Shown: piece after piece, positions 20,326 through 31,094 of the stretch
Position numbering within the stretch: the first letter of the stretch is position 1
Layout: the number at the start of each line of letters is the position of its first letter
Assembly: GCA_016932475.1 (NCBI GenBank)
Contig: JAFGCU010000027.1
Coordinates: forward strand, 1 to 64,000
Origin: Anaerolineales bacterium
Lineage (GTDB): Bacteria > Chloroflexota > Anaerolineae > Anaerolineales > RBG-16-64-43
Length of the DNA stretch: 64,000 nucleotides
Reading direction: 5' to 3'
Notes under the pieces: model-generated
What the model was told of the DNA's origin: nothing
Database searches by the model: none
The model's input: the letters and a program-made list of their open reading frames with translations, nothing else
Translations under genes and position numbers: made by a program

Positions 20326-20727
20326 TCAGGAAACAGCGAGGTGCGGGCGGAATTTATATCCGTACTGGATCACGCCTTCCGCCCCGTCGGTCCGCAGGCG
20401 GCGGGTGACCATCTCCACCGGCATCCCGATTTTTATGTCGGCAGCGTCGACATCGGTAAGCTGGGCGGTGACCAGCGGCCCTTCCGCGAGCTTGACCAGT
20501 GCGACGGCGTACGGCGCCTGGGTCTCGTATCCGGTCGGCGGCTCGTGGACGACGGTGAAGGAATACACTTCACCCCGGCCGCACATCGCGTGGACCGGAC
20601 CCGCTTCCTCGCCGCAATGCGGGCAGATATCCCGCGGCGGGAAAATGTATTCCCGGCAGTGGCCGCATTGCTCGCCCACGAGCGCGTACCGCTGTCTGCG
20701 CAATCTCCAATGTCTGGCGATATCCAT
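20326..20727 (-). CDS. DUF35 zinc-ribbon/OB-fold protein, thiolase-HMG-CoA synthase scaffold
   Basis: The 133-residue protein has an N-terminal zinc ribbon (CGHC at about 21-24, CPHC at about 35-38) followed by an OB-fold (YSFTVVHEPP, APYAVALVKLAEGPLV, IGMPVEM). In archaea this small protein bridges thiolase and HMG-CoA synthase and holds the shared CoA pantetheine channel. Its position between those two genes supports the same role here. AAAGGAG precedes the ATG. The gap to the upstream HMG-CoA synthase gene is 91 bp and contains a perfect palindrome, so a separate or attenuated transcript is possible. Confidence 0.92.
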   Translation of the reverse strand: MDIARHWRLRRQRYALVGEQCGHCREYIFPPRDICPHCGEEAGPVHAMCGRGEVYSFTVVHEPPTGYETQAPYAVALVKLAEGPLVTAQLTDVDAADIKIGMPVEMVTRRLRTDGAEGVIQYGYKFRPHLAVS

Positions 20728-20798
20728 GTTCGACTCCTTTCGACTGGCAACCCCCTGCCCCTTCCCAAAATGGTGGAGGGGTGATGGGGCAATCGTAG

Positions 20799-20818
20799 GG
20801 GCGGACGGCCGTCCGCCC
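20799..20818. repeat. Perfect 20-bp palindrome directly after the HMG-CoA synthase stop
   Basis: GGGCGGAC-GGCC-GTCCGCCC begins immediately after the HMG-CoA synthase stop codon, read on the minus strand. There is no U-run after it. It could be a partial terminator, an mRNA-stabilising stem, or a dispersed repeat; a related GGGGCGACCCGGCGGGTCGC stem lies near 42483. Confidence 0.7.
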
Positions 20819-21913
20819 TTACATTTTCAGTTTTCCCCGGTAGCGGGCGTACACGCCGTAATCGATTTCCTTGCGGCGCGAGATGTAATCGGCGGTGCGC
20901 GGGGCGCGCGGCCGCCGCTCGAGCAGCTTTTCCGTGACGGTGAGTTGGAACGCGTCCGATCCCGCGCCCGACCCGAACGACACCACCAGGATGCGGTCGC
21001 CGGGCGCCGCCTGGTCGAGCACCGCGGTCAGGCCGATCAACGCCGATCCGGCGTACGTGTTCCCGATCTGCGGCGCCAGCAGCCCCGCCTGAATTTGTTC
21101 CCTCGTAAAACCGAGCAGCTCCGCCGCCCGCTGCGGAAACTTCGGATTGGGCTGATGGAAAACCGCATAACGGAAATCCGCGGGGGAAGCCCCGGTGCCC
21201 GCCAGCAAGGTCCGCGCGGCGCGGGTCACATGCTTGAAGTAGGCGGGCTCGCCCGTGAAGCGTTGGGCGTGCGAGGGATATTGCGCGTGGTCGCGCCGCC
21301 AGAAATCCGGCGTATCCGTCGCGTACGAATACGAGGCTTCGATCACAGCCAGCGCATCCTCCGCCGGCCCGATCAGGAAGGCCCCGCCGCCCGCGCCGGC
21401 GGTGTATTCCAGCGCGTCCCCTGGACGGCCCTGGGCGGTGTCCATCCCGATCGCGAGCGCGTAGCGGATCATCCCGGATCCGACCATGCCGACCGCGGCC
21501 TGCATCGCTTCGCTGCCGGCCTTGCAGGCGAACTCCCAATCCGCGGCCAGGAGGTTCGGAGAGGCGCCGATCGCTTCGGCGACGACGGAGGAGGAAGGCT
21601 TGACCGCATACGGATGGGATTCCGACCCTACCCATACCGCGCCGATCCCGGACGGGTCCGTCCCCGCGCGGTCCAGCGCGTTGCGCGCCGCCTCGACCGC
21701 CATGGTGATGACATCCTCGTCCAGACCCGGAACCGATTTTTCGGCCACAGTCGGCGGGGTGTTCCCCTCTGTCCAGACGCGGGAGATTTCCTTCCCGGGC
21801 AGCCGGTAACGGGGAACGTAGGCGCCGTACCCGGCGATGCCCACGCCGCGCGCCGGCCGCATGACCGGCGCTGCGGGGGATATGGGTTTCTCGTTCCCGG
21901 TGAAATTCGTCAT
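20819..21913 (-). CDS. Hydroxymethylglutaryl-CoA synthase, archaeal type
   Basis: It condenses acetyl-CoA with acetoacetyl-CoA to HMG-CoA. The 364-residue length and motifs match the archaeal/FabH-like branch rather than the longer Gram-positive MvaS. Catalytic residues visible are Glu98 in [12 protein letters not shown], Cys130 in [12 protein letters not shown], and His253 in [10 protein letters not shown]. The ATG at 21913 starts a short N-terminal tail before [15 protein letters not shown], and it lies 4 bp after the HMG-CoA reductase stop, so the two are co-transcribed. DUF35 and thiolase genes follow. Together they make the complete route from acetyl-CoA to mevalonate. Confidence 0.93.
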
Positions 21914-21917
21914 TGAA

Positions 21918-23198
21918 TCACTTCCGCAGCTGCTTGACCAATGCTTCCGCCCGGTCGGTGCGGACCGCGTGCTCCGCCACCATCTGCCCGGCGATCCGGT
22001 CCACCGCTTCGCCGCTGGCGCCGGCGGCGATCGCCACCTGGCGCGCGTGCAGGCGCATATGTCCGTGCTGGATGCCCTCGGTGGAGAGCGCGCGCAGAGC
22101 CGCAAGGTTCTGCGCCAGCCCGACCGAGACGATCACCTCGGCCAGTTCGCGCGCGGTGCGCACCCCGAGGATCTTGAGCGCCGCCCGGGCGGCCGGGTGC
22201 ACGCGCGTCGCGCCGCCGATAATTCCCGCCGCCATCGGGAGCTCGAGGTATCCCGCCAGCCTGCCTTCGCCGTCGCATTCCCATGTGGAGAGCGAGGTGT
22301 AGGTCCCATGGCGTGCCGCGTACGCGTGCGCTCCGGCTTCCACCGCGCGCCAATCGTTGCCGGTCGCCAGCACCACCGCGTCCACGCCGTTCATGATTCC
22401 CTTATTGTGAGTCGCCGCGCGGTGCGGGTCGGCCGCGGCAAATGCGTACGCCTCGAGAATCCCTTCCCGTACCGCTTCGCCGCTCCAGCCTTCGAAGGCC
22501 AGCGCGGCGGCCGGTATCGCGCAGCGCGCCCGTGCCAGACGCCGGTCCGCCAGGTTGGAGAGAATCCGCAGCCGCGTTCTTCCTCCGGTCAGCCGTTCGA
22601 TCAGCGGGGCAACCCGTTCGCAGGCGGTGTTGACCGCGTTGGCGCCCATCGCATCCCGCACGTCGATGATCAGATGCAGGACAAGGAAGGGACCGCTCAG
22701 CGGGGAATCGATCGTCCGAACCTCGATATCCCGCGGGCCGCCCCCTGCCCGGACAAGCACCGGATCGGCCTCAGCGGCTTCGGCCAGGATTTCCTCCCGG
22801 TGGGCGAGCAGCGTTTTTTCCGCCGCCGTCAAATCCGGCAGATCCAGAATTTGAATCTGCCCGATCATTTCCGGTTCGTCGGCGTCGGCGGAAAAACCGC
22901 CGCCTTCGCGGATCAGCCGGGCCATGAACGAGACACCCGCCACGACCGAAGGCTCTTCCACCGCCATCGGGACCAGGACCTCGCGGCCGTTGATCAGGAA
23001 ATTCGTGGCAATTCCCAGGGGAAGCGCATACAGGCCGATGACGTTTTCAATCATCCGGTCGGCGAGCGCCGGTTCGATCCCGCCCCGGTCCAGGATCGCC
23101 GTATCGGTGGAATCCAGCCAAGCGCCGTCAATCAGAGCCTGCCGGCGTTCCTTAATCGATTTATTATGGAATCCTGAAATGCGCGAGGATCCGGTCAT
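21918..23198 (-). CDS. mvaA: Hydroxymethylglutaryl-CoA reductase, class II
   Basis: It reduces HMG-CoA to mevalonate with two NAD(P)H. The 426-residue protein has no membrane region. Class II features are present: [20 protein letters not shown] near residue 50, the catalytic Glu in [12 protein letters not shown] (about 81), [10 protein letters not shown] in the cofactor/substrate region, the catalytic Lys in [11 protein letters not shown], and the C-terminal catalytic His in GHMRLHAR. It opens the operon of HMG-CoA synthase, DUF35 and thiolase. Class II reductases are found in bacteria and some archaea (Thermoplasmatales, Archaeoglobus), so the operon mixes a bacterial-like reductase with archaeal-type upstream enzymes. 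No strong ribosome-binding site is visible. Confidence 0.94.
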
Positions 23199-23368: not shown

Positions 23369-23429
23369 GACTTGACTCCTCCACCCATCCGGCAAGACAT
23401 TTGCCGGGGGACAGGAGCTACCTCAAGTC
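23369..23429 (+). promoter_or_regulatory. Structured 5' leader element of the exosortase operon
   Basis: The 61 nt just before the first gene fold as three stacked stems. P1 is GACTTGA (23369-23375) with TCAAGTC (23423-23429). P2 is CTCCT (23376-23380) with AGGAG (23413-23417). P3 is CCGGCAA (23389-23395) with TTGCCGG (23401-23407), closing a GACAT loop. All 19 pairs are canonical. Unpaired parts are CCACCCAT, GGGAC and CTACC, the kind of internal loops that bind ligands or proteins. It ends 15 nt before the ATG at 23445. I could not match it to a riboswitch class I know. Confidence 0.5.
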
Positions 23430-23444
23430 TGCAAATGGAAAAGA

Positions 23445-23945
23445 ATGCGAAAAATAATTGCGTACGCGCTGATTCTTTCTTTGTTGTTATCCGCCTTCCC
23501 CGGACGGGTTCTGGCCGCGGGCGGCAACATCCTGTATTTGATCGCCTGGGGCGGTTATGCTCCCGACACCGCCGTTACCGTCCAAACGACGGTCCAAGCC
23601 ACCGAGAAGCAGAATAACACCAGCTTGTACTATACGATCTCGCTGGGTGGCACGGTGTATGCCACCCATACCACGCCTCTGGGCCGTCTGAATGCATGGG
23701 AGACGGCAACCGATGAATGGAGCACAATGAACACGGGTTGGCCGGCGGGGACCTACACCATCACCGTCTGCTGGAGCCCGGGGAGTTCCACGAACTGCGG
23801 CATCGCCGGGCCGGTGACCACCACTTACTACATCGTCCCCACACTCGGATGGGGACTCAGCCTGACAGGGCTGGCCTTCCTAATGTATTTTCTCTGGCGG
23901 CGGCGCGCGGAATTCGAGCCGGCAGGGGAAAGGATCCGCGCATGA
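23445..23945 (+). CDS. Predicted exosortase substrate with IPTL-like C-terminal sorting tail
   Basis: The 166-residue protein has a signal peptide (about 1-24, ending RVLA|AGG) and a mature part of about 105 residues rich in Thr, Tyr and Gly that looks like a small beta-sandwich with two cysteines (Cys109, Cys118). The C-terminal tail is VPTLGWG (131-137), then a hydrophobic helix (about 137-151) and RRR (152-154). This three-part tail resembles IPTL-CTERM signals recognised by exosortases. The next gene, an exosortase, overlaps its stop by 4 bp (ATGA), so they are translationally coupled. I infer it is the dedicated cargo of this operon. The ATG has only a weak GGAAAAG upstream. Confidence 0.75.
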   Translation: MRKIIAYALILSLLLSAFPGRVLAAGGNILYLIAWGGYAPDTAVTVQTTVQATEKQNNTSLYYTISLGGTVYATHTTPLGRLNAWETATDEWSTMNTGWPAGTYTITVCWSPGSSTNCGIAGPVTTTYYIVPTLGWGLSLTGLAFLMYFLWRRRAEFEPAGERIRA

Positions 23946-24544
23946 GCCCGCTCGCGCTTTCCCTTTTCGCGGGCGTCTACCTGGCCGGGTTGCTGATTCT
24001 GCGGAAGGCCCGCAAAGGCCTGATCGGCTACCTGTGGGCGTCTTTCGGTTTTGCCGCAATCGTCATCTTCGCCGGCCAGCTCGGAAGCTGGAACGAACCC
24101 CTGGGAACACTGCAGGTATGGTTCCTGGTCTTCGTGAGTCAGCTATTCGGCGGCCCGCTGCAAATGGTGCCGGGCGGCGGCCTGGTGGTGCCCGATCCCA
24201 CCGGCTGGTCGATCCTGCAGGTCGGGATCGAATGCTCGGCGCTGATTGAAATGTCGATCTTCGCCGGGTTGATGCTTTTTTACCCGCGCTTCCCGGCTTC
24301 CGAACGGCTGGGACGGATGGCCGTCGGCATCGCGGCGACAGTTGCGATCAACCTCGTCCGCCTGGCGGTTATCGTTGTGATGGTGTCGACCTTTGGCAAA
24401 CCGATCGTGCCATGGGCGCATGCGATCGTCGGGCGGCTGGTCTTCTTCGCCGGGATCCTCTACCTGTACTGGCGGATGCTGACCCTGCCGACCCTTACCC
24501 TGATTCGCCGGGAGCTGGAAGTAACCCGGCGGACGGAATTGTAG
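23942..24544 (+). CDS. Exosortase/archaeosortase family protein, XrtG-like
   Basis: The 200-residue integral membrane protein with about 6 helices has the exosortase catalytic arrangement. Cys98 lies in GIECSALIEM, Arg140 in INLVRLAV, and His160 in WAHAIVGRLVFF with Arg165. Exosortases are cysteine transpeptidase-like enzymes that cut C-terminal sorting tails and hand the protein to a glycan or other anchor. The short form and the neighbouring glycosyltransferase resemble the exosortase G system described in Gram-positive bacteria. It overlaps the substrate gene by 4 bp; the glycosyltransferase starts 14 bp after its stop. I place it in the XrtG-like group by context, with moderate certainty. 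Confidence 0.85.
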   Translation: MSPLALSLFAGVYLAGLLILRKARKGLIGYLWASFGFAAIVIFAGQLGSWNEPLGTLQVWFLVFVSQLFGGPLQMVPGGGLVVPDPTGWSILQVGIECSALIEMSIFAGLMLFYPRFPASERLGRMAVGIAATVAINLVRLAVIVVMVSTFGKPIVPWAHAIVGRLVFFAGILYLYWRMLTLPTLTLIRRELEVTRRTEL

Positions 24545-24558
24545 ATTCGAGGCTTCGA

Positions 24559-26007
24559 ATGGGTTTTTTTGGCTTTGACTTTTTACTCATGTGGGGGGTG
24601 TGGATTCTCATCCCGCTCGCGGCGGACATCGCCCAGGCGCTGTGGGATGCGCTGCTGGTCTGGCGCAACGGCCGCCAGGCCAAGCTCTTCCCGCCGCTGG
24701 TTATACCCCCCATGCCGAAGGTCTCGATCATCATCCCGGCCCATAACGAGCAGCTTAACATCGACCGCTGCATCACCTCGCTCAAAGCCCAGACCTACCC
24801 CCACGAGAAGATTGAAATTCTCGTCGTCAACGACGGCTCCACCGACCGGACCGAGGAAGTGGTCAACGGCCACATCAACGGCTCCCCGCACTGGAACGGG
24901 CATATCCGGCTGTACAACCGCGTCATCCCGGCGCTCGAATTCGGCGGCGTGATGACTCTCCTGCAGGGGGGCCACCGCGGGAAACCGGCGGCGGTCAACA
25001 CCGGGTTGCTGCACTGCCGCGGCGATCTGATCTTCACGATCGATTCCGACGCGGTCCTCGAGCCCGAGTCGATCCAGCAAGCGGTGATCGCCTTCCAGCG
25101 CGATCCGGACCTGGTCGCGGCCACGGCCCATCTGATCATCGACCGCGACCTGCTGGTGGAGAACGACGGAAACGGGCACATCCACCTCGACCGCGACGAC
25201 ATGCCGGTCCCGATGAAGCTCAGCGTGATGGAGAACTTCCTCGCCACGGCCCAGTTTATCGAGTACTTCCAATCTTTCCGGATCGGCCGGCATGCCGAAG
25301 CGCTGCGCGACGAGTTGTTCACCCTCTCGGGCGCCTGCGCGATTTACCGCCGCGAAGCCCTGCAGGCGATCCACGGCTACCGCGGACGGACCGTCTCCGA
25401 GGACACCGACGCCACCCTCACCCTGCAGCGCTTTCCCGGGCGGGTGACCTACCTGCCGCAGGTGCGCATCCACCTCGCGCCCACCGAAAGCTGGCGCGCG
25501 CTGTTTGCCCAGCGGGTGCGCTGGCAGCGCGGGGAATTGGAGGCGCTGGCCGTTCATTACGACATGCTCGGGATGGGGAAGCGGATCTGGCAGCGCGCGC
25601 TTCCGCGCCGGCTTCAGCGCGATCACACCATGGGATTCCTCCGGTTGGTCTGGGTGTTCCTGCTGCCGATGTTCCCGTTGCTCGGATACAGTCCGGCGAT
25701 AGTGGTCCAGGCGATGGCGCTCATTTACGGGTTGTACATCCTGGCCGATGCGGCCCAAATCGCGGCGGCTTGGAGCATCTGCGCCCCGAGCGAACGCCGC
25801 ATTCTGCGCAAGGCGCTGGCCTTTCTTCCCCTCCTGCCCCTCTATCGGATGGTAGTATACTTTTTCCGGATGAGCGGGAACCTGAAGACTCTCACCGAAC
25901 CGCCGCGTTGGACGGCCTCCGCGGGATGGCTGGACAAACTGCGGATTCCCGGAGGAGGGAAAATCGCCGGATGGCTGCGGAATTTTGCGGAGTTCTGGGC
26001 GGGCTGA
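24559..26007 (+). CDS. Processive GT2 glycosyltransferase of the exosortase operon
   Basis: The 482-residue protein has an N-terminal helix (about 8-32) and a GT2 domain: IIIPAHNEQ (57-65), VVNDGSTDRT (89-98), the metal-binding DSD (162-164), the catalytic SEDTD (280-284) and QRVRW (318-322). The last is the product-holding motif of cellulose/hyaluronan-synthase-like processive enzymes. Two or more C-terminal helices follow (about 365-440). It likely polymerises or transfers a sugar at the membrane. A family of this kind (exosortase G-associated glycosyltransferase) is known to sit next to XrtG, so it probably makes the glycan to which the cargo is attached. There is no strong ribosome-binding site; translation is probably coupled to the upstream gene. 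Confidence 0.88.
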   Translation: MGFFGFDFLLMWGVWILIPLAADIAQALWDALLVWRNGRQAKLFPPLVIPPMPKVSIIIPAHNEQLNIDRCITSLKAQTYPHEKIEILVVNDGSTDRTEEVVNGHINGSPHWNGHIRLYNRVIPALEFGGVMTLLQGGHRGKPAAVNTGLLHCRGDLIFTIDSDAVLEPESIQQAVIAFQRDPDLVAATAHLIIDRDLLVENDGNGHIHLDRDDMPVPMKLSVMENFLATAQFIEYFQSFRIGRHAEALRDELFTLSGACAIYRREALQAIHGYRGRTVSEDTDATLTLQRFPGRVTYLPQVRIHLAPTESWRALFAQRVRWQRGELEALAVHYDMLGMGKRIWQRALPRRLQRDHTMGFLRLVWVFLLPMFPLLGYSPAIVVQAMALIYGLYILADAAQIAAAWSICAPSERRILRKALAFLPLLPLYRMVVYFFRMSGNLKTLTEPPRWTASAGWLDKLRIPGGGKIAGWLRNFAEFWAG

Positions 26008-26008
26008 T

Positions 26009-28810
26009 TTGAAACCCAAGCACACCCTCCGCGACCAGGTGTGGCCAGTTCTCCTGGTCGCTTTTTTTATCCTCCTCGCGTTGATTGGGGTCTGGACCGC
26101 AGGTTCTGCGCGCGGCGCCGATACCTGGGGTCATCTGTTCCGGGCGGAGTATCTCGCCGGCGAGATGGCCGCGCAGGGTCCCGGCGCATATTTCACCGCC
26201 GCCTGGATGCCGAACTGGTATATGGGGGATCCGTTTCTCACGTACTACCCCCCGCTGACCACGCTCTTGCTCGCGCCGCTCATCTACCTGACTCAAAACA
26301 GCGATATCGCCCTCCGGATCCTGATCTCCTCCTTCCTGGTAAGCTTCTCCATCCTCACCTTTGCCTATCTGGACCGGACCTGGAATCGCTGGGCGGCGTT
26401 TCTCGGGACCGTTCTCGCCGTCGGCGCGCCGTATCAGATGCGCACGGTTTTCTTCGAGGGAAACCTGCCGCGCATGCTCTCCCTGCTTGCACTTCCGGCA
26501 ATCGCGCTGCTCACCGACCGTCTGCTCTCCCCCCATTCGCGCCGCGCGCCGCTCACGATCCTCCTTGCCCTGTGCTGGTCCTGGGCGATCCTCGCGCATC
26601 CGCAACAGGCTGTGATTTTCGCCATCGGGGTCTCCCTCTATCTGGTCTTGCGGCTGATTCTGGATCCCGAAGTTCCGCTGTACCGGCTTGCGCCTTGGCT
26701 GGGGTCCATTCTGCTGGGCGCTTTATTCGCCGCGCCCTGGCTGCTTCCGGCGTACAGTCGTGCGGAATTGGCAAACATACCGTTCCTTCCGGCGGAGAAG
26801 ATCCCGCTCTTTTCCTCCACCCTCTACAGTTTCCTCCCGCGGCTGGATCTCACCCACGGTCAGATCCTGTTCGGCTTCGGCTCGCTGCTGATCGGGCTGC
26901 TGGCGATCGCCGCCCGGCCCGATCCGCATCGCAGCGCCTGGTATCTGACCGGGCTGTTGGCGATCCTGTTCTCCCTCGGCCCCGACGGCGTATTCTTCAA
27001 CCTTATTCCCCTGAACAACCAGCTCCTCCCCGAACGCTTCCTGAATTTTTCCGCGTTCGCCATTCCCGTCGCCGCCGCCGGGCTGCTTCCAATGGGGCGC
27101 AACCTGCGCCTGATCCGGTCGGTATTGCTGGTTATCCTGGTGACGGTGGAGCTGATCCCGGCCGCGCGGATCATTCCCAGCGGTGAATATCCTCGGGATC
27201 AGGCCGTTCTGGAAGCCGTCCTGACGCCGGGCGGCGGCCGCGTCGCACTGATGACCTACCCGGAACCGACCGCGCTCGAGGTATATTTCGCCGGGAAGCG
27301 CTCGCCTCTTATATTCGGATGGGCGCTTGAAAATACGCCGCATCACGTCGCGCTGCGCCGGGTGCTCTCCGCGCCGGAATGGGGGCCGGAGTATCTGGAA
27401 GCGCTGTTCGCGCGCTGGGATGTGCGCACGGTGGTAATCGCCGGCGGGACGGAGGCGGATCCGGCGCGCGAAGCCGTTTCCGCAATGGGTTTCGACCGGG
27501 AGGCGGTGATCGGGCGGTACGAGCTCTGGCGCACAGCCGCGCCTCCGGCGCAGGTGCAGTCGTTGCCGGCCCAGAACATGCTACTTGTCGGCGACAGGTT
27601 GGCTCCCTTTCTGGCGGCCTTTCCGTTCGCCGAGGAAGCGTCGCCCGAAACATTTCTCAACGAGCAGTCCGGATTCCTGACGGAATACCCCATCCTCGGC
27701 TTCTACCGGTTCGCGGAAGATTCAGCCGAAGTAAAAATGCACGAGGACATCCTGCGCAATTACCTGAATGCCGGCGGGACCGTGGTGGTGGACTTGAGCG
27801 GGATGGAGGATATCTTCGGGGGCACCCTGGATTTCTTCGGCGTCCACGCCTTCCGGCTGGCCTTCGACGACCGGATGACTCTGCGCGGCGCCGACTCATC
27901 GATAAGCCTCCCCACCCAATTGCATTTCGCCGGCCTGACCGGGGAAGGATGGTCCGGAGCTTCGTATGAAGGATTGGATACGATCGTTGCGGTAATGGAC
28001 CGGGATGGGACTTCGTTTCCGGTCCTTGGTTATAAAACCGTCGGCCTGGGCAGGGTCTGGTTCGTGGGCGGCAACCTGCTGTATTACACGCAGCTAGCCG
28101 GCCAGGAAGCCCTGCGCGAGTACATCCGCGAGGTCATCCTTGAGGATATCCGGGTATCCAGGTCCCTGGTCTTCCCGTCCATTCCCCTGCTCTCGTACGC
28201 CGAATCCGCCGGCGGCCTGACGTTCGATTACTTTTCCGCCGCGCCGATCCCTGCGCTCGTCTCCTACACGTATCATCCGAGATGGCTCGCCACGATCGAC
28301 GGCATGGAAGTCGGCTTGGGCGTCCGGGATAACCTGATCCGGATCCTGCTTCCCGCCGGAACGCATCATGTGGAAATCCGGTACGACGCAGGCGGCACAA
28401 TCTGGCCGTGGTTGGGCGGATCGGCGGCCATCCTCGGCGTTTTCTGCGCTGCGGTCTTCTGGCTGCTGGATCGGCATTGGCGGAAACACGGCCGCCCGCC
28501 GCGCGACTTCCTGGAGGTGTTCCAGAAACCGGAAAGCCCGGAAGGCGGAGGGACCTTCACCCCCTGCGCCCATTGCGGATTCCGCTTGGCGGTCAGTCAT
28601 CCACCGACGCCGATCACCTATCCGTTCCAGGTGTCGCACTGCCCGATTTGCGAGGCGCGGATGGACGATGAGGGCTTCCTGCCGGGGAAGGACCTGACCC
28701 GCGAAGAACAGGCCCGCGCCCTGCACCAATGGCTGCGCGCCAACCATTATGACCCGCGCATGATCCATACCCAGTGGGGATTTTCCGTGGAGGAGTTTTT
28801 CAAGCGGTAG
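26009..28810 (+). CDS. Large polytopic membrane protein (PTPS-related type) with C-terminal zinc ribbon
   Basis: About 933 residues. The first 380 form roughly 10-11 transmembrane helices with a loop motif GADTWGHLFRAEYLAGEM and later PERFLNFSAFAIPVAA, resembling GT-C glycosyltransferase-like membrane proteins annotated as PTPS-related (PF10131). Residues about 390-820 form a large probably extracytoplasmic part, followed by one more helix (about 790-815). The C-terminus has CAHC (853-856) and CPIC (878-881), a zinc ribbon expected in the cytoplasm. It is the last gene of the exosortase operon. A TTG start at 26009 or 25985 is needed; both are plausible. It probably transfers or exports the glycan. 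Function is inferred from context. Confidence 0.8.
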   Translation: MKPKHTLRDQVWPVLLVAFFILLALIGVWTAGSARGADTWGHLFRAEYLAGEMAAQGPGAYFTAAWMPNWYMGDPFLTYYPPLTTLLLAPLIYLTQNSDIALRILISSFLVSFSILTFAYLDRTWNRWAAFLGTVLAVGAPYQMRTVFFEGNLPRMLSLLALPAIALLTDRLLSPHSRRAPLTILLALCWSWAILAHPQQAVIFAIGVSLYLVLRLILDPEVPLYRLAPWLGSILLGALFAAPWLLPAYSRAELANIPFLPAEKIPLFSSTLYSFLPRLDLTHGQILFGFGSLLIGLLAIAARPDPHRSAWYLTGLLAILFSLGPDGVFFNLIPLNNQLLPERFLNFSAFAIPVAAAGLLPMGRNLRLIRSVLLVILVTVELIPAARIIPSGEYPRDQAVLEAVLTPGGGRVALMTYPEPTALEVYFAGKRSPLIFGWALENTPHHVALRRVLSAPEWGPEYLEALFARWDVRTVVIAGGTEADPAREAVSAMGFDREAVIGRYELWRTAAPPAQVQSLPAQNMLLVGDRLAPFLAAFPFAEEASPETFLNEQSGFLTEYPILGFYRFAEDSAEVKMHEDILRNYLNAGGTVVVDLSGMEDIFGGTLDFFGVHAFRLAFDDRMTLRGADSSISLPTQLHFAGLTGEGWSGASYEGLDTIVAVMDRDGTSFPVLGYKTVGLGRVWFVGGNLLYYTQLAGQEALREYIREVILEDIRVSRSLVFPSIPLLSYAESAGGLTFDYFSAAPIPALVSYTYHPRWLATIDGMEVGLGVRDNLIRILLPAGTHHVEIRYDAGGTIWPWLGGSAAILGVFCAAVFWLLDRHWRKHGRPPRDFLEVFQKPESPEGGGTFTPCAHCGFRLAVSHPPTPITYPFQVSHCPICEARMDDEGFLPGKDLTREEQARALHQWLRANHYDPRMIHTQWGFSVEEFFKR

Positions 28811-29115: not shown

Positions 29116-30153
29116 CTATTCTTTTGTTTTATCCTTTGGAGGCTTTTTGGTCTCTTCAGGCTTTGGGGTTTTCGTAGGCTCCGGAGTCTTTGAAGGCTTT
29201 GGTGTTTTTGAAAGCCTTGGGGTCTTGGAGGCTTCCGAAGTCTTTGTGAGCCGCGCGCTGTCCGTGTCGGGACCGGAGTCGGGCCCCTTTTCGGCGGGCG
29301 ACGCAGGATCATTCCCTCCCGCGGCATCCTTGGTGGATTTTTTCTCCTGGCCCGGGGGAATCTTCTCCGGTTCCTGATGCTCTTGCAGTTTCCCGACCCG
29401 TTCCTGGCTTTTCTGGGAATGCTCTATCGCCCGGTCCAACCCAGATTGGGCCTGTTGCGGGAGCTGGTCCCGGAGGGCAAGCAGAGTCTCCGAATGCCGG
29501 GCCAGCCGCGTCTGGATATCCTCCAATTGGGCCGACGCGGAATCGGGCGGCAATTGACCCACGGCATCATCCAACCGGTTCAGGGTTTTATCGTAATTAT
29601 CCAACCCTTGGACAAGATCCGCTTCCCGGTCCGTTGCCGCCAACCGCTCGACTTCCTCCAGGCGTTCATCGGCGTAATTCGCAAGGAGGGCAAGATCGCC
29701 CGTCGCGGAAAACGACAGGGTCAAGGAAATTTCCTCGACCCCCTGCTTGACAGGGTAGAGCGCGTCGCCCGGGAGGGCTCCGGCGGATACGGATGTCACA
29801 CCCAAACCCGATAATCCTGCAACGGCCGCGGCCACCACGGCAGCCAAGGCCCACGATCGACGCCAAGACCGGCGCCCCTGGACTGCGGTGCGGGATTCGC
29901 GCCGCGCCGGTTTGGGGTCGTATGTTTTTATCCGTCGCAGCAGGCGGGTTCCGGACGCCGTGACATATTCCGGAGACAAGCTGTGCGCGGAGTACAGTCC
30001 CCGTATGCGCGCAGCCGTCTCCAGCAAGGGGCGGATTTCCGACACAGCGCCCTGTTCCCCCAGCAGGGAATCTTCAGGCGCCGCCTTCCCTTCCAGCATC
30101 CGCTGAAGGGCCCGATCGAGGATATCCGCCTGAATGCGCTCTTTGCTGATCAT
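29116..30153 (-). CDS. DUF5667 domain protein, probable membrane-bound sigma partner
   Basis: The 345-residue protein has a cytoplasmic N-terminal region (1-95) and one transmembrane helix (about 98-122). The DUF5667 segment starts GALPGDALYPVKQGVEEISL (about 126-145) and continues into helical repeats with coiled-coil character (about 150-250). A low-complexity tail is made of KTPKPSKTPEPTKTP-like units (about 295-345). It overlaps the preceding ECF sigma gene by 4 bp (ATGA). The sigma/DUF5667 pairing suggests an anti-sigma or signal-sensing role, but no classical anti-sigma zinc motif is present. The Lys/Thr/Pro tail would lie outside the membrane and could bind cell-wall polymers. Confidence 0.8.
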   Translation of the reverse strand: MISKERIQADILDRALQRMLEGKAAPEDSLLGEQGAVSEIRPLLETAARIRGLYSAHSLSPEYVTASGTRLLRRIKTYDPKPARRESRTAVQGRRSWRRSWALAAVVAAAVAGLSGLGVTSVSAGALPGDALYPVKQGVEEISLTLSFSATGDLALLANYADERLEEVERLAATDREADLVQGLDNYDKTLNRLDDAVGQLPPDSASAQLEDIQTRLARHSETLLALRDQLPQQAQSGLDRAIEHSQKSQERVGKLQEHQEPEKIPPGQEKKSTKDAAGGNDPASPAEKGPDSGPDTDSARLTKTSEASKTPRLSKTPKPSKTPEPTKTPKPEETKKPPKDKTKE

Positions 30154-30707
30154 GTCTGTTCCTGTATTTTGCTGCGCAAAGACGCAAGCGCCCGGTGCAG
30201 CAGGACGCGGGTTGCGCCTTCGGTCAGGTTCATCCAGTTCGCCACCACGGCAGTCGGCATCGCCAGGATGATCCGCAGAATGATTACCTCGCGGTAGTTG
30301 AGCGGGATTTCCTCCATGGCTCGCCGCAGGTCACGGATCTGCTCATCCCGGATGACATGTTCATCGAGAGGACGAAGCGACTCGAGCACAGGGGAAGGTA
30401 TCGCATATCCAACTTCCGTTTTTTGCCGGCGGTAATAATCGATCAACACGTTTTTCGCTACCTGGTACAGGAATGCGGAAAACGGCCAGCCTTGTTCGTG
30501 ATACGTCCCCAGAGCCTGGAAGGCACGGAAAAAAACATCCTCCGTCAGGTCCTCCGCTTCCTTGGATTCACCCAGCCTTGCGAACAGGTAGCGGTAGATC
30601 GGATCGACATAGCGCCGGTAGAGACTGCCGAAAGCTTCGGAATCTCCGCCTCTGGCCCGGGCCACCAAAATCGCATCGCTCTGTTCGGTCAGCGGTGTGT
30701 CATTCAT
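30150..30707 (-). CDS. ECF-type RNA polymerase sigma factor
   Basis: The 185-residue protein contains sigma region 2 (about 20-90, with SKEAEDLTEDVFFRAFQAL and FSAFLYQVAKNVLIDYYRR) and region 4 (about 120-175, with IPLNYREVIILRIILAMPTA then EGATRVLLHRALASLR). It should direct transcription of an envelope- or stress-related regulon. The DUF5667 membrane protein is translationally coupled downstream, and two exported proteins are divergent upstream, so autoregulation and control of those genes is plausible. The ATG at 30707 gives MNDTPLTEQ; a GTG 18 nt upstream is less likely. A TATACT at about 30736-30741 on the minus strand may be its -10. Confidence 0.93.
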   Translation of the reverse strand: MNDTPLTEQSDAILVARARGGDSEAFGSLYRRYVDPIYRYLFARLGESKEAEDLTEDVFFRAFQALGTYHEQGWPFSAFLYQVAKNVLIDYYRRQKTEVGYAIPSPVLESLRPLDEHVIRDEQIRDLRRAMEEIPLNYREVIILRIILAMPTAVVANWMNLTEGATRVLLHRALASLRSKIQEQT

Positions 30708-31094
30708 GAAAACGGATTCCCACACAGATTGTTACAGTATAACCCGATTGTCCAGGCTCCTTGCAGTAAAAAAAACGGGAAAAGCAATTTCTTCGCAAGG
30801 CAGCGGCATGAAAACGGCATTCTGAAGATTCGGGGTATCTGGCTGGCATCCAAAAAAAGGCGAAAAATAATGGGGTTCCGGCTCACGACCCGGCCCGCTC
30901 CGCCAGTACGAAGGTAAAGGATGTCCTCTGTAACATATTGGGAACCCCGCCGTTTTCCTTGTATCCGGCGATGTAACAGTGTTTATCTTAAAAACAACGC
31001 AGGGGGCTCAGTTTCCGGAACCGGTCAGGCTGACCGGAATGGTTCCACATGCGCTGTCATACGGACAAAGTGACATTTGGCATTCGGAGAAAAT
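30708..31094. other. Divergent intergenic region between sigma factor and lipoprotein genes
   Basis: No gene is seen in these 387 bp. It should hold the promoters for the sigma operon (a TATACT near 30736-30741 on the minus strand) and for the plus-strand lipoprotein gene. GC content is visibly lower than in the flanking genes, and no strong repeat is present. Confidence 0.5.

Follow-up and report, generated by a model that had tools for sequence, protein, structure and literature searches.

The window analysed here, a stretch of 64,000 nucleotides from an Anaerolineales bacterium, contains a four-gene operon that probably encodes a divergent exosortase system of XrtG-like type, dedicated to one substrate, in which the tail of the cargo would be cleaved and the cargo then transferred to a glycan or glycolipid. 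The most interesting result is a covariation between the enzyme and the tail, seen in the separate-cargo loci of this exosortase clade and absent outside the clade. The features to which the text refers are as follows, all on the plus strand.

23445..23945, plus strand: cargo (substrate) with a signal peptide, a seven-strand beta-sandwich and a C-terminal sorting tail
23835..23855, plus strand: tail signature VPTLGWG, residues 131-137, followed by a transmembrane helix and RRR
23838-23840, plus strand: tail Pro132, within VPTLGWG
23942..24544, plus strand: XrtG-like exosortase (TIGR03110, TIGR04178 and PF09721 scores; tree)
24233..24235, plus strand: Cys98, the predicted nucleophile, covarying in the family with the tail Pro (family alignment, covariation tests)
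24359..24361, plus strand: Arg140, conserved catalytic residue (family alignment)
24419..24421, plus strand: His160, conserved catalytic residue (family alignment)
24559..26007, plus strand: processive-type, TIGR03111-like GT2 (DxD, ED and QRVRW motifs)
26009..28810, plus strand: PF10131 (PTPS_related) polytopic membrane protein of GT-C fold (PF10131, 132 bits; Foldseek)
28565..28657, plus strand: putative zinc-ribbon extension with four Cys (two CxxC) on the GT-C protein, found in the window subtype only

Gene calls and operon layout

An ORF check places the four genes in one block, 23445-28810. The cargo ORF begins with ATG and encodes 166 aa; the exosortase ORF (200 aa) overlaps it by 4 bp, the GT2 ORF (482 aa) follows after a gap of 14 bp, and the membrane-protein ORF lies 1 bp further on. 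The layout described by an earlier sequence-only reading, four same-strand genes with overlaps or gaps of 1-14 bp, is thereby confirmed. The membrane-protein ORF described there also exists, but its length is 933 rather than 930 aa, three first codons having been left out; its TTG start at 26009 lies at the same place as the ATG start of the homologue in a congener. A search of the operon region against Rfam gave no RNA match.

Divergent from the operon, the minus strand at 20326-23198 encodes an HMG-CoA reductase, an HMG-CoA synthase-like thiolase-fold protein and a zf-ChsH2/OB-fold protein, which are probably part of the mevalonate pathway. Downstream of the operon, the minus strand at 29116-30725 carries a Sigma-70 family factor and then a DUF5667 protein.

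Exosortase and glycosyltransferases

A match of 23942-24544 to exosortase models was looked for and found: the protein scores 53.6 bits against the superfamily model TIGR04178 (cut-off 23) and 27.7 bits against PF09721 (cut-off 25.7), and Cys98, Arg140 and His160, already named in the sequence-only reading, align with the family. Judged by these models and the Cys/Arg/His residues, the enzyme is a member of the exosortase/archaeosortase superfamily. Against the XrtG model TIGR03110 it scores 72.3 bits (4.5e-20), below the cut-off of 102.75, and its relatives in the window clade score 70.7-77.4 bits; on these sequence comparisons it is a divergent XrtG-like variant, outside XrtG by the curated models. 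XrtH is absent from the exosortase models that the protein matches, and comparison with solved structures by sequence gave no match.

The GT2 has the expected QRVRW motif. Its score against the XrtG-associated glycosyltransferase model TIGR03111 is 235.4 bits (1.1e-69), below the cut-off of 363.95, yet this is its best-scoring model; its closest solved relatives in the PDB are bacterial cellulose synthases. The structure model of the PF10131 protein matches AftD, ArnT, AftA and STT3 in Foldseek, though its TM-scores over the query are modest (0.3-0.4), and its four-Cys extension has no match in Pfam. The proposed coupling of the cargo to glycan machinery thus holds, with a cellulose-synthase-like GT2 and a GT-C-fold protein as partners.

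Cargo and sorting tail

The cargo ORF and its VPTLGWG-helix-RRR tail stand as first described for a secreted protein. In the AlphaFold2 model, a signal-peptide-like helix (residues 2-16) is followed by strands (27-130), most blocks of which have a pLDDT >90, and by a second helix (135-156). The tail had been thought IPTL-like, which the searches contradict: the IPTL-CTERM model gave no match to it up to E=5, and no CTERM model scored above its cut-off. Similarly, the Firmicu-CTERM model TIGR04145 does not match the window cargo; related Chloroflexota cargos match it weakly (E 0.03-0.17).

By alignment, the tail belongs instead to a family of the approximate form SPxPxLGW that is common to the XrtG-like loci of Chloroflexota and Bacillota, the pattern shared by the family tails being SP-x-[P/polar]-x-[LM]G. 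When a tail profile was trained without the window clade, the four window-clade cargos ranked 58-61 of 14,701 ORF C-termini, straight after the known cargos. When the sister locus L083 was left out as well, the window tail fell to rank 85 (E=6), and the three other cargos of the clade still ranked 58-60.

The cargo bodies of the family are of several types: DGxFxDW proteins, which have a distant likeness to Firmicu-CTERM, large proteins in Tepidiforma-type loci, and the beta-sandwich of the window. A profile search found no window-type body in L083, but pairwise alignments with L092 and L093 gave z = 8.5 and 12 against shuffles. The L083 cargo has a start that resembles the DGxFxDW type by eye and an end domain akin to the window type, and may therefore stand between the two.

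Distribution of related loci

Related loci were gathered with a glycosyltransferase alignment as the query; a one-protein query found none. The cargo-Xrt-GT-GTC block recurs in a congener, whose four proteins are 58/72/85/68% identical to those of the window, and in two other MAGs of Chloroflexota, and therefore is not a chance arrangement; conservation in other Chloroflexota had been proposed as a check, and a related block was found in these genomes and in others. A strong XrtG-like match is present in 8 of 400 Chloroflexota genomes, the window genome counted, and a glycosyltransferase gene adjoins it in all of them. Further loci in a wider collection come from Ardenticatenaceae, Anaerolineae, Tepidiforma, Dehalococcoidia, Syntrophomonadaceae, Peptococcaceae and Thermincola. 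In most loci a tail-bearing gene lies directly upstream of the exosortase gene.

The usual order among the related loci is PTPS-GTC-cargo-Xrt-GT; in many Bacillota, PTPS and GTC form a fusion. The order seen in the window, which lacks PTPS, occurs in four loci that form one clade in both the Xrt tree (100/99) and the GT tree (100); L083 is the sister of this clade. A PTPS domain (TIGR03112/PF01242) was found neither in the window genome nor in G002, G403 and G404. All four genomes of this subtype share a beta-sandwich cargo that replaces the Firmicu-CTERM body, the lack of PTPS and the four-Cys GTC extension. In two Thermincola loci (L079 and L085), the GT-C protein and the cargo form one ORF, which in L079 has PTPS at its front.

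Proposed mechanism

The mechanism that we infer, including cleavage itself, the scissile bond, the identity of the acceptor and the surface display of the cargo, would proceed as follows. The cargo would be exported by Sec and held in the membrane by its C-terminal helix, and the exosortase would recognise its (V/A)PTLG(W) signature. Cys98 would then attack the chain near Pro132, so that a thioester forms and the membrane tail is released; this step would follow by likeness to the model for archaeosortase ArtA, in which a thioester on the active-site Cys precedes lipid attachment (PMC7157517). An acceptor supplied by the GT2 polymerase and the GT-C enzyme, the latter using polyprenyl-linked sugars, would resolve the acyl-enzyme, so that the beta-sandwich protein would end up on a glycan or glycolipid at the cell surface. 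An acceptor of this type is suggested because the partnership with the GT2 and GT-C enzymes is conserved. Of the earlier proposal of a surface glycoprotein or pilus-like polymer, the first part is plausible; we found no support for the second.

Alternatively, the exosortase might only release or trim the cargo, while the neighbouring glycosyltransferases make an exopolysaccharide to which the released protein binds non-covalently. We consider this possible but unlikely. Low TM-scores of about 0.5 link the cargo fold to beta-sandwiches associated with carbohydrates, among them the Wzt carbohydrate-binding domain, and the GT2 resembles polymer synthases. However, the glycosyltransferase gene adjoins the exosortase gene in 70 of the 71 loci, which suggests a closer link, and archaeal ArtA substrates have a lipid added to their C terminus once it has been processed (PMC7157517).

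Covariation between enzyme and tail

Across the 71 loci, residue 98 of the exosortase is Cys in 29, Ser in 36, Asn in 3, and Thr, Arg and a gap in one each. The 57 loci with a separate cargo fall without exception into two combinations: Cys with a tail Pro (27 loci) and Ser with Asn, Ser, Asp or Thr in the tail (30 loci). On the Xrt tree each trait switches five times, and on the GT tree four times. The best Xrt tree yields five independent pairs, three of which lie on well-supported branches (3/3 concordant); the sign test gives p 0.25, since the independent switches are too few for it to reach significance. A Pagel test supports dependent evolution (LR 34.4, p=6e-7), and its p value stays <0.01 after Bonferroni correction for the approximately 3,000 possible pairs, the pattern having been noticed in the data before it was tested. 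Among these pairs, residue 98 and the tail Pro have the highest mutual information, whether or not a background correction is applied. Loci found later fit the pattern as well, several of them being near-duplicates. Separate origins of Ser98 are supported by its codons, which are TCN in most separate-cargo loci, AGT in L043 and AGY in fused loci. Bona fide XrtG does not follow the rule: the enzymes of Lactococcus, [Eubacterium] eligens and Aneurinibacillus have Cys with no alignable Pro in the tail.

In 13 loci (L070, L073, L074, L076, L077, L082, L084, L094, L096, L126, L127, L129 and L130), cargo and exosortase form one continuous ORF of about 400 aa, which in L094 is shorter and holds part of the cargo. 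The catalytic Cys is absent in 13/13 of these fusions, Ser, Asn, Thr or Arg standing in its place, and such natural fusions without Cys can serve as evolutionary controls. L098 and L134, in which the exosortase is fused to the glycosyltransferase, were not counted as good fusion evidence because the glycosyltransferase lacks part of its domain.

We lean, by a modest degree, towards the following reading of these data. The nucleophile of this clade would have changed between Cys and Ser on several occasions, and on each of them the tail residue would have changed between Pro and Asn/Ser/Asp/Thr as well, giving cysteine and serine sortase-like enzymes; because both residues switch together, they would come into contact in the active site. 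Enzymes that have lost the nucleophile could become fused to the cargo, and the window system would represent the Cys-Pro combination, having a new type of cargo and lacking PTPS. Such a strict coupling indicates where the enzyme contacts its substrate and suggests a cleavage site that can be tested; in the case of ArtA, the precise site of processing is still unclear (PMC11980579). A literature search on Chloroflexota exosortases or serine exosortases returned nothing relevant, and a 2012 survey of archaeosortases and exosortases may mention Ser variants.

The frequent replacement of the catalytic Cys, by Ser in 36 of the 71 loci and by Asn, Thr or Arg in five, and the 13 fusions could also mean that the exosortase is no protease here but assists the cargo and the glycosyltransferases in the membrane, as a partner or chaperone. 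This seems improbable to us, given that Cys, Arg and His are kept in the window clade and that tail and active-site residues change together, as expected of an enzyme and its substrate.

One substrate in the genome

The claim of a single dedicated substrate is supported by a search of the whole genome (97.8% complete, 129 contigs), since it contains one detected exosortase and one tail-bearing protein, the operon cargo, which was the single profile match (E=2.3e-24). The sequence-only reading allowed that many other substrates with the same tail might turn up elsewhere, but searches with two profiles and a DNA pattern revealed no other in this genome. Further candidates on C57, C107 and C6 were dismissed because they are polytopic proteins or internal matches, and a PTFGW match on C119 was rejected because its frame is broken by stops. 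That several substrates encoded elsewhere in the genome depend on this operon, in the manner of PEP-CTERM systems, is very improbable: short tails are hard to detect and the assembly is not quite complete, but both profiles and the DNA pattern reveal no second tail, and the weaker matches are polytopic or internal. An operon with one enzyme, one substrate and its own glycosyltransferases offers a compact system in which to search for the acceptor.

Comparison with known systems

The likeness to IPTL-CTERM/exosortase H, a matter of the VPTL/IPTL motif, is superficial, the IPTL-CTERM model having no match in the tail. The nearest system is XrtG/Firmicu-CTERM of Bacillota (TIGR03110, TIGR03111, TIGR03112, TIGR04145, and TIGR03766 or PF10131), which has also been described for Lactiplantibacillus plantarum (PMC12854382). 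Both have one cargo beside the enzyme, a processive GT2 and, in the operon, a membrane glycosyltransferase, which is a PF10131 protein in the window and a PF10131 or TIGR03766 protein in XrtG loci. The sequence-only reading had likened the arrangement to that of exosortase G, which is right for gene order: in [Eubacterium] eligens the order is cargo-Xrt-GT-(PTPS)-GTC, from which the window differs in the missing PTPS, and Lactococcus lactis has the same order with TIGR03766 as the membrane glycosyltransferase. The likeness does not extend to class membership, since the exosortase and the GT2 score below the XrtG cut-offs. The window system also differs from XrtG in having no PTPS in the genome, no Firmicu-CTERM match, a different tail and the four-Cys extension on the GT-C protein.

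One XrtG locus (L136) is carried on a conjugative plasmid of Lactococcus lactis, beside a diguanylate cyclase and an EAL-domain protein, which suggests that this locus is under cyclic-di-GMP control.

The XrtG-like loci of other Chloroflexota and of Syntrophomonadaceae and Peptococcaceae encode exosortases, glycosyltransferases and PF10131 proteins homologous to those of the window, and their tails are related to the window tail. They differ in having PTPS and GTC upstream (or fused), in many cases Ser in place of Cys, and cargo bodies that are mostly of the DGxFxDW type.
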